From Chitinophagaceae bacterium (GTDB taxonomy: Bacteria > Bacteroidota > Bacteroidia > Chitinophagales > Chitinophagaceae): a stretch of DNA of 64,000 nucleotides. Under the pieces are notes generated by a model. That model was not told the origin of the DNA. It saw only the letters and a list, made by a program, of their open reading frames with translations, and ran no database searches. Position numbers and translations under genes: made by a program. The DNA is taken from the NCBI GenBank assembly GCA_016786745.1, contig JAEUVS010000164.1, positions 1-64,000 of the forward strand, read 5' to 3'. The stretch's first letter is position 1. Every line of letters begins with the position of its first letter. This document shows positions 42,004 to 59,771 of this stretch, piece after piece.

Positions 42004-42228
42004 ATGACTGAAAGAGTGATGAATGAAAAAGTCTACAACAGGATTAAGGCTGTACTTGCAGAAGAACGAAAAACTAACATGTGGCTTGCAGAGAAATTGC
42101 AAATGAGCCCTAACACCGTATCTAAGTGGTGCACCAACCAGATGCAACCGACCATTGAAACATTGTTCCGGATTGCCGGCGTGCTGGATGTGGAAGCGCG
42201 TGATCTGCTGGTGTCGTCCAGGAAGTAA
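42004..42228 (+). CDS. Small XRE-family HTH protein
   Basis: 74 residues that consist of little but one HTH_3-type domain: MWLAEKLQMSPNTVSKWCTNQMQPTIETLFRIA, quoted in part as LAEKLQMSPNTVSKWCTN. A second ATG at 42019 is possible. It is clearly paralogous to the small XRE protein at 63104, sharing the NxxxNRI..VLAE, WLAEKL, WC.N.MQP.IETL and DLL.SS positions. It is monocistronic in appearance. Targets are unknown. Three TTATCC hexamers (41921, 41946 and 41965) lie upstream. Confidence 0.8.
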   Translation: MTERVMNEKVYNRIKAVLAEERKTNMWLAEKLQMSPNTVSKWCTNQMQPTIETLFRIAGVLDVEARDLLVSSRK

Positions 42229-42371
42229 CCGCGCATCGCAACCAAAGCCGCGCACGTTCCAGGCACATGGATAGGGTGTAATTAATTTGCTGTCTGCCAA
42301 CTCCTACAGACGCCCAACGGGTATGTCTTTTGATGTATCAAACTTTATTCTTCACGAATAAAGGCAACGAT

Positions 42372-42902
42372 ATGTCAATAGCATGGAAGGCAGATCCTGC
42401 ACACACGGAAATACAGTTTAAAGTTAAACATCTGATGATCACTACCGTAACAGGTTATTTCAGAAAGTTTGACCTTGAAGTGGTTACTGAAACTGAAGAT
42501 TTCAACTCCACTACATCCATCAATTTCACGGCCGATTCCAGCTCAATTGACACAAATAATGCCCAGCGTGATACTCACCTGAAATCCGGCGATTTTTTCA
42601 ATGCGGAAAAATATGGCCGGATCCAGTTTACAGGAACACGATATGAGGCACTGAACGACAAGGCCACGCTCCAGGGTAACCTTACCATAAGAGGCATCAC
42701 CAAGCCCATCACCCTTGATGTAAACTTTGCCGGAACCGTTGTAGATCCTTATGGTCAGAAAAAAGCCGGATTTGCTGTTACCGGCCGAATAAGCCGTAAA
42801 GAATTTGAACTGAAATGGAATGCCGTTACCGAAGCAGGAAGTGTAGTGGTATCCGATGAAGTAAGAATCGTTGCGGATATACAACTGATACAGCAACAAT
42901 AA
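42372..42902 (+). CDS. YceI-family lipocalin-like protein
   Basis: 176 residues from the ATG at 42372 (MSIAWKADPAHTEIQFKVKH); starts at 42330/42333 add residues with no family support. It has the YceI beta-barrel pattern: DPAHTEIQFKVKHLMI, INFTADSSSIDTNNAQRDTHLKS, and GNLTIRGITKPITLDV. YceI proteins bind long isoprenoids; here there is no signal peptide, so it would be cytosolic, as is common in Bacteroidota. It is a paralogue of the gene at 58450. A hairpin follows at 42948. Confidence 0.9.
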   Translation: MSIAWKADPAHTEIQFKVKHLMITTVTGYFRKFDLEVVTETEDFNSTTSINFTADSSSIDTNNAQRDTHLKSGDFFNAEKYGRIQFTGTRYEALNDKATLQGNLTIRGITKPITLDVNFAGTVVDPYGQKKAGFAVTGRISRKEFELKWNAVTEAGSVVVSDEVRIVADIQLIQQQ

Positions 42903-58449: not shown

Positions 58450-59010
58450 TTAAGCAGCCACTGCTTCCTGTACCGCCTGTTTCACCAGCTCAACATCTCC
58501 CCATATTTTAATTTCTTCTCCGAGCGCCACTCCACCTGTTTCCAAAACAGGATTGTATGATACGCCGAAATCATGGCGGTTAATCTTGCCTGAAAGAGAG
58601 AAGCCCGCACGCGAACCACCCCACGGATCTTTTGTTACTCCACCGAATTCAAGCTTAAGCTCAACTGGCTTTGTAGTTTCTTTAATAGTGAGATCACCGA
58701 CGAGAGTAAAATTCTCATCGTCTACTTTCTCGATACGCGACGACTTAAATGTGAGGTAGGGAAATTTTGCCACTTCAAAGAAGTCTGCATTCCGGAGGTG
58801 TTCGTCACGTTGTGAATTGTGGGTACTGATAGAATCCACTTCGATTTTCACATTTACATTGGCTGTAGTGAAATTGTCGCCCTCCGTTTCAGCGGTGATG
58901 TCTACTTTACCGAATGTACCTGAAACATTAGTGATCATGAGATGCCTGATTTTAAAGCCGATCTCGCTGTGTGTAGGGTCGATGACCCATTTGGTTTTTG
59001 ACGTGCTCAT
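58450..59010 (-). CDS. YceI-family protein
   Basis: 186 residues. It begins TKWVIDPTHSEIGFKIRHLMI and contains VEVDSISTHNSQRDEHLRN, VGDLTIKETTKPVELKLEFGG and ISY-like GVSYNPVLETGGVALGEEIK, all classical for YceI. It has no signal peptide. It is a paralogue of the gene at 42372. It lies downstream of a TetR gene on the same strand, with an 11-bp palindrome 41 bases before its start that is identical to one ahead of tetR. Regulation by that TetR protein is the obvious proposal. Confidence 0.92.
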   Translation of the reverse strand: MSTSKTKWVIDPTHSEIGFKIRHLMITNVSGTFGKVDITAETEGDNFTTANVNVKIEVDSISTHNSQRDEHLRNADFFEVAKFPYLTFKSSRIEKVDDENFTLVGDLTIKETTKPVELKLEFGGVTKDPWGGSRAGFSLSGKINRHDFGVSYNPVLETGGVALGEEIKIWGDVELVKQAVQEAVAA

Positions 59011-59050
59011 TTTTGATGTTTTAACTTTGAAGTAATATCATTATAAATAC

Positions 59051-59061
59051 TAACAGTGTTA
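59051..59061. promoter_or_regulatory. TetR-type operator upstream of the YceI gene
   Basis: TAACAGTGTTA, a perfect palindrome about a central G. It is identical to the site at 59695. It lies between the YceI start and the tetR stop, positioned between a possible TTTG -33 element and the -7 region on the reverse strand. Confidence 0.65.
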
Positions 59062-59080
59062 ACTAATAGGGCAAAAAAAT

Positions 59081-59683
59081 TTAGACTTTAATGCCGGAGA
59101 TAAATGCCTTGATAAAGTCCTGTATTACCAGCTGGTTCAGCTCCTGTTTCGCCTGGTTATGGTTCATCATATTTATGGATATTAACCCGTGCAGCATCGA
59201 CCAGAAGGTATGCAGCTTCAGCATGTCATCGGCTTCATGGTTGTTGCTCGCTGTAATAAGGCCTTTAATGGGTTCCAGGACAAGATCCGTGAAGGTGGCC
59301 AGTTCCGGGACCTTATTCACGGTATCGCACGACGGCAAGCCGAGACCGTACATCACCTGGTAAATCGCTTTATTATCGAAGGCGAACTCCCAATAGGAGA
59401 AGGCCATGGCTTCTATCTGCTTTTCCGGGTCGCTATAACGCTTTTTGGCTTTGGCCATCTCATCGCTGAGGAGGCCGAATCCCTGTTTGGTGAATTCAAG
59501 GAGTATGGCTTCTTTGTTTTCGAAGTGGTCGTAGATTACGGGTACGCTGTATTCTATCGCGTCGGCTATGCGGCGGATAGAGAGGGCCTGCCAGCCTTCT
59601 TCCTGGACGATCTTCCAGGCCGCCTGCAGTATAGAGGCTCTAACCTCTTCCTTTTGCCTTATTTTCCTTTCCGCTATACCCAT
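59081..59683 (-). CDS. TetR/AcrR-family transcriptional regulator
   Basis: 200 residues. The N-terminal HTH is clear: RASILQAAWKIVQEEGWQAL, then SIRRIADAIEYSVPVIYDHFENKEAIL, a textbook TetR domain. The C-terminal ligand domain contains FDNKAIYQVMYGL and LKLHTFWSMLHGLISINMM, similar to TetR_C_33-type regulators. An operator-like TAACAGTGTTA lies just ahead of its own start, overlapping the transcription start, and a second lies ahead of the YceI gene, so it probably represses both. Confidence 0.9.
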   Translation of the reverse strand: MGIAERKIRQKEEVRASILQAAWKIVQEEGWQALSIRRIADAIEYSVPVIYDHFENKEAILLEFTKQGFGLLSDEMAKAKKRYSDPEKQIEAMAFSYWEFAFDNKAIYQVMYGLGLPSCDTVNKVPELATFTDLVLEPIKGLITASNNHEADDMLKLHTFWSMLHGLISINMMNHNQAKQELNQLVIQDFIKAFISGIKV

Positions 59684-59694
59684 AGTATAAAATC

Positions 59695-59705
59695 TAACAG
59701 TGTTA
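59695..59705. promoter_or_regulatory. TetR-type operator upstream of tetR, with promoter
   Basis: TAACAGTGTTA (extended CTAACAGTGTTAG, 59694-59706). On the reverse strand a promoter TTTG-21 bases-TATATTTG ends just before it, so a bound dimer would sit on the transcription start, 12 bases before the tetR start codon. Confidence 0.7.
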
Positions 59706-59771
59706 GCAAATATAATATGATTTTAGACCGGTTTCCAAATAATTCCCGGACATTAACAAATCTTTGAAACT

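Follow-up and report, generated by a model that had tools for sequence, protein, structure and literature searches.

A palindromic operator conserved beside a clade of TetR-family genes in Bacteroidota and a predicted autorepressor circuit for a YceI-family lipocalin

A TetR-family regulator and a YceI-family lipocalin encoded side by side in a Chitinophagaceae bacterium very probably form a local autorepressor circuit, in which the TetR protein is predicted from sequence comparison to control both tetR and yceI through the palindrome TAACRNYGTTA. The two genes lie in a stretch of 64,000 nucleotides, the whole of which is referred to here as the window. Such control of both genes had been claimed in an earlier note on this DNA, and the claim is strengthened by an operator that is kept at the same promoter position beside a clade of TetR genes in dozens of species. 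The operator, its position, the clade, the classes of its target genes and a cysteine conserved in the regulator were established directly. In relatives, the same switch serves drug pumps and detoxifying enzymes, which suggests an alarm for chemical stress more than simple lipid sensing.

The operator pair and its promoters

In the window, tetR comes first and yceI follows 70 bp behind, both on the minus strand. The features concerned are the following.

59736–59739, minus strand: −33 TTTG of tetR, with a spacing of 21 bases to the −7 box, read from the sequence
59707–59714, minus strand: −7 box TATATTTG of tetR
59695–59705, no strand assigned: operator O1 of tetR, TAACAGTGTTA (minus-strand reading CTAACACTGTTAG), separated from the −7 box by one base
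59081–59683, minus strand: tetR, predicted TetR-family repressor of 200 aa (TetR_N PF00440 and TetR_C_33 PF13305), with Cys119 in the ligand domain
59073–59079, minus strand: T-tract 5′ of the yceI operator, kept in the target promoters of relatives
59051–59061, no strand assigned: operator O1 of yceI, TAACAGTGTTA, an exact match
59033–59043, no strand assigned: putative second operator O2 of yceI, weaker than O1 and 18 bp past it (minus-strand reading TAATGATATTA), with six of the eight fixed bases
58450–59010, minus strand: yceI, YceI-family lipocalin of 186 aa with domain and PDB matches and without an apparent signal peptide

The minus-strand tetR promoter reads TTTG-N21-TATATTTG and the operator begins one base later, which agrees with the description of a palindrome adjoining a TTTG-N21 promoter in the earlier note. 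The identical 11-bp palindromes reported there before tetR and yceI are both exact copies of TAACAGTGTTA, placed 11 bases before the tetR ATG and 40 bases before yceI, and a search of the whole window found no further exact copy. At yceI, O1 has the T-tract on one side and an AT-rich, TATAAT-like stretch on the other. When up to two mismatches are allowed, 19 near-matches are found in the window against 15.5 expected, i.e., at chance level, and weight is therefore given to the exact copies only.

The search for further sites that the earlier note had proposed, and the many random copies that it had held to speak against an operator, were followed up in the organism's own assembly (G000, 4.75 Mb, 168 contigs), where exact TAACAGTGTTA occurs at four places: the tetR and yceI sites and two more, which lie within a sensor-kinase-like and an aminotransferase-like ORF (ORF names assigned by eye). 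The exact palindrome thus stands at no other promoter of the genome, and this check does not refute the operator. The relaxed form TAACRNYGTTA occurs at 21 places against 32 for a reversed control and is thus not enriched genome-wide, an observation that favors the view that the two palindromes are a product of chance or sites of a different factor. Seventeen of the 21 places fall inside ORFs (delimited by length, not annotation), two are the tetR/yceI pair, one precedes a paralogous tetR and one is intergenic; a wider TAACRNYGTTA regulon in this genome was rejected, given the 17 places inside ORFs. The double site TAACRNYGTTA-N7-TA-N7-TA argues against a chance pair, since its two matches in the genome are the tetR and yceI promoters (reversed control, one match). 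Among 195 genomes of the family, the same pattern was matched in 83 with a reversed control of similar order (totals not summed), so it defines no regulon outside the organism's own genome.

The intergenic copy, GCTAACAGCGTTAGG at L159:3001–3011 (G000 C33:7316–7326), has flanks that match the 13-bp form and is followed by a DUF4249-like gene and then a thioredoxin-reductase-like gene (names by eye). It was rejected as a regulon member because it is absent from all 29 of the other homologous loci inspected (one of which, L197, is a fragment with an upstream region that was not really read), and we treat it as a chance or species-specific occurrence.

Conservation of the operator and exchange of target genes among relatives

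A search of 99 related genomes found TetR relatives in 59; nearly all of the relatives with more than about 40% identity have TAACNNNGTTA in front of tetR, and in most of them it precedes the next gene as well. A scan of GTDB genomes yielded 80 TetR-clade loci at 49–73% identity, many from Chitinophagaceae and others from genera that include Pontibacter, Pedobacter, Mucilaginibacter, Spirosoma, and Dyadobacter. Counts over these 80 loci exclude copies from the related-genome search; L091, L095, L132, and L134 are on the same contigs as G012, G032, G005, and G058. TAACRNYGTTA stands before tetR in 78 of the 80 loci, the two without it being L121 and L133 (a stricter script gave 76/80; the second script allows for mis-called starts, and the first mis-chose the start in L137 and L141). 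Of 567 regions upstream of other ORFs in these loci, 4 contain the same form. Within 260 bp 3′ of tetR, between tetR and the next gene, it is present in 57 of the 78 loci with enough sequence; the 21 without an exact site there include 11 of the Pedobacter DoxX group and three YceI-led loci (L079, L080, and L098). Of 13 loci from relatives at about 30% identity, four (L026, L028, L029, and L037) keep TAACNNNGTTA in front of both tetR and the gene that follows it.

Conservation across the clade, set against the background frequency, bears out the statement in the earlier note that two identical sites are unlikely by chance and leads us to reject a chance origin of the pair; an explanation by coincidence or by sites of a different factor is altogether improbable. 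Judged by this conservation, TAACAGTGTTA is almost certainly the operator of the window TetR.

Of 78 tetR promoters in the clade loci, 66 have TAnnTTTG immediately adjacent to the operator. It follows the operator in none of the 50 target promoters checked (four classes), which leaves the steric picture at the targets incomplete. The target promoters (n = 57, window included) display a degenerate copy, TAAYANTGTTA, at +18, in which T and A are found in 98% and 88% at the start and in 89% and 84% at the end. The match at this offset averages 5.84 of 8 fixed bases, with 3.67 for the next best offset and a median of 2.35 for the other offsets. Weaker echoes at the tetR promoters are found at −18 (4.72) and +18 (3.67), the former partly accounted for by its overlap with the −7 box. 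The 18-bp copy may thus accommodate a second dimer per promoter. The T-tract lies 12–17 bases 5′ of the operator in the 57 target promoters; in relatives, it is almost invariant and comes right after the tetR stop codon.

The gene next to tetR varies among the 80 loci: it encodes the MFP of an RND pump in 25, a YceI protein in 20, a nitroreductase in eight, and a DsbA-like protein in five, with fewer cases of FMN reductase, pirin, and DoxX, and no lipid-metabolism gene is among the identified target classes. In a tree of 98 rows, the RND label requires 4 changes and the detox label 8, compared with shuffled means of 29.0 and 31.9. The window TetR falls in the detox part, near the Pontibacter YceI loci and L077. 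A paralogue in the same genome (C51, 49% identity) falls in the RND part and precedes an MFP-RND-OEP operon, with TAACAGCGTTA in front of the tetR paralogue; the pump gene is not preceded by an exact site. Since the tree is a quick one (28 of 94 inner branches starred, 34 drawn open, L056 a long branch), no direction of target exchange is claimed. Rows L086, L136, L137, and L149 are unlabelled, their downstream genes being unreadable; labels were set by hand as RND for L100, L111, and L156, detox for L144, and dox for L088. L047 was dropped because the ORF script found no tetR; L016 stands for that genome in alignments A1 and A2 and is absent from the tree. TetR residues 34–58 are nearly invariant in the clade, and the C51 paralogue differs little there, which makes cross-talk plausible; the yceI-linked and pump-linked paralogues, whose recognition helices hardly differ, may cross-regulate.

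Several loci have compositions of their own. In loci of Pedobacter relatives (L104, L110, L112, L113, L115, L117–L119, L129, L143, and L147), TetR is paired with a DoxX-like gene, followed in most by genes for an LEA_2-type protein and a PIG-L deacetylase-like protein (Pfam checked in L104 only); the operator is kept at tetR, and the next gene is without an exact one. Four loci (L096, L102, L105, and L116) contain two or three YceI genes each, for secreted as well as leaderless forms, plus a DsbA-like gene, and three of these clusters include a 131-aa membrane-like protein, of which the L102 copy is without a Pfam match.

The proteins, the likely signal and the proposed mechanism

The TetR protein contains an N-terminal helix-turn-helix domain (PF00440, E 1.1e-12, 48 bits against a cut-off of 24) and the C-terminal domain PF13305 (36.3 bits against a gathering score of 26.8). 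No NCBIfam equivalog scores above its cut-off, and no NemR-named model is among the 15 NCBIfam hits. An AlphaFold2 model (pLDDT 91.3, pTM 0.85) predicts an all-helical, two-domain fold, with a best match at Z 18.9 (rmsd 4.2, 188 residues). The nearest solved folds include acyl-CoA-binding FadR and FasR and multidrug-binding QacR, whose drug complexes match the model at Z 15.1–15.7 (rmsd 3.0–3.7, 177–182 residues); with matches spread over acyl-CoA, drug, and other ligands, the fold leaves the ligand undecided.

The YceI protein starts with MSTSKTKWVIDPTHSE, directly at its domain (PF04264, E 1.4e-46, 159 bits against 23.7), and it matches 1wub and other PDB entries; the phmmer hits include 5w37, annotated as ‘Polyisoprenoid-binding protein’, and the window YceI is close to solved proteins of this kind. 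Its score against the equivalog NF002994 (PRK03757), 132.4 bits, lies below the cut-off of 232. A simple motif was located in 26 of the relatives' leading YceI proteins, 20 of which have a Met within 12 residues of it; the count is rough, as two of the 20 (L092 and L097) look like cut secreted forms, two more leading proteins (L096 and L141) are without the motif, and secreted forms also exist. The genome contains four YceI genes. A second one in the window, at about 42372–42902 on the plus strand, is preceded by a small helix-turn-helix gene (about 42005–42229, by eye); no exact operator was found near it.

In the earlier note, the TetR protein was supposed to sense a lipid-like ligand and to release a YceI lipid-binding protein; on this reading, the ligand would be a fatty acid, an acyl-CoA, or a polyisoprenoid, and YceI a lipid carrier. 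That YceI-family barrels hold polyisoprenoids, and that FadR, FasR, and PfmR turn up among the folds closest to TetR and among its weak sequence relatives, is in keeping with it. However, FadR and FasR score 32 and 34.8 bits, far below their cut-offs of 200 and 330, and sister loci place the same repressor and operator before RND pumps, nitroreductases, DsbA-like oxidoreductases, FMN reductases, and pirins, with no lipid-metabolism class. The claim of a lipid-like ligand thus goes unsupported, and we regard it as unlikely.

The second line of evidence on the signal is a cysteine at position 118 or 119 in all 82 clade proteins (the 80 loci, the window, and the paralogue): Cys119 in 76, including each of the 39 labelled detox proteins, and Cys118 in the other six. 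None of the 13 relatives at about 30% identity has a cysteine at either position; as the operator also occurs in Cys-less relatives, DNA recognition is independent of the cysteine. In the model, Cys119 is predicted to begin a short helix (119–124) between helices 105–111 and 126–145, in a stretch with pLDDT of about 70–79. Varied detoxification and pump targets, along with an almost fixed cysteine, make a toxic or reactive compound a better fit than a lipid.

RND-linked members of the clade also have the conserved cysteine, which could be structural. It would be so in a multidrug sensor like QacR or AcrR, which binds hydrophobic drugs non-covalently and for which YceI would be a drug sink in the place of a pump. 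The operator shared with RND-linked relatives, the paralogue before a pump operon, the QacR–drug complexes matched by the predicted fold, and antibiotic capture by YceI, as reported in PMC5350466, lend this reading some weight; the invariance of a cysteine at 118/119 and the recurring reductase and oxidoreductase targets are left unexplained by it, and we consider it possible but rather doubtful.

Our proposed mechanism starts from a dimeric TetR repressor that would bind TAACRNYGTTA; we infer DNA binding, and repression rather than activation. At the tetR promoter, the operator abuts the −7 box and would cover the expected transcription start, while at the yceI promoter the weaker copy 18 bp past O1 could hold a second dimer. 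With no signal present, the repressor would keep both its own gene (autoregulation) and the target gene off. The inducer, a toxic compound of hydrophobic or electrophilic nature (e.g., a quinone, a nitroaromatic, or an antibiotic), would enter the C-terminal domain and perhaps react with, or bind near, Cys119, thereby releasing the repressor; YceI would then rise and sequester the compound or shield isoprenoid and quinone lipids. YceI lipocalins are reported to capture antibiotics (PMC5350466) and to contribute to the detoxification of peroxyl radicals, with ubiquinone-8 or other isoprenoids bound in several of them (PMC9113575), which fits a protective role.

More tentatively, and at somewhat less than an even chance, we propose a Bacteroidota-wide thiol-switch regulon, in which the TetR clade, defined by Cys118/119 and by TAACRNYGTTA with its weak tandem copy at 18 bp, would sense electrophiles or quinones and switch interchangeable defences. 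These would comprise YceI, a DsbA-like oxidoreductase, nitroreductase, FMN reductase, pirin, DoxX, or an RND pump; YceI would then be a chemical-stress rather than a lipid-transport protein, and the two paralogues of the window genome may cross-regulate. The mechanism seems ordinary and the clade regulon undescribed: no account of the TAACRNYGTTA operator or of this regulon was found in a literature search that mostly lay outside subscription papers. YceI proteins occur commonly, and what they do is a matter of debate; one operator that trades YceI against drug pumps and reductases is a direct genetic hint of a part for YceI in the chemical-stress defence of Bacteroidota, and the yceI promoter–operator pair offers a ready means for finding the inducer.

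Comparison with known regulators and lipocalins

The predicted circuit resembles local repressors of the AcrR, TtgR, and QacR type in that a regulator lies beside its target, with a palindromic operator over the promoters and, as the sequence suggests, autoregulation; close relatives of the window TetR precede MFP-RND-OEP operons, and the QacR fold matches. It differs in having a YceI lipocalin as its target where those repressors have a pump, and in its operator sequence, which we take to be distinct from those of AcrR and QacR. Acyl-CoA-responsive regulators (FadR, FasR, and BkaR) share the fold class and a weak sequence similarity with the window TetR, which nevertheless falls far below the curated cut-offs and has neighbouring genes that are not of fatty-acid metabolism.

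Electrophile sensors such as NemR of E. coli and those of the QsrR/YodB type have a cysteine in the sensing domain and act on nitroreductase and FMN/quinone reductase targets. The window clade likewise combines a cysteine in the ligand domain, with a putative sensing role for Cys119, and nitroreductase and FMN reductase targets, whereas its operator and target set are different. Unlike BcnA of Burkholderia cenocepacia, a secreted protein with a link to a cytochrome b561 gene, the window YceI shows no apparent signal peptide and has its link to a TetR; it nonetheless belongs, with BcnA and LcoA, to the YceI-family lipocalins, which PMC5350466 and PMC9113575 tie to antibiotic capture and oxidative-lipid stress.
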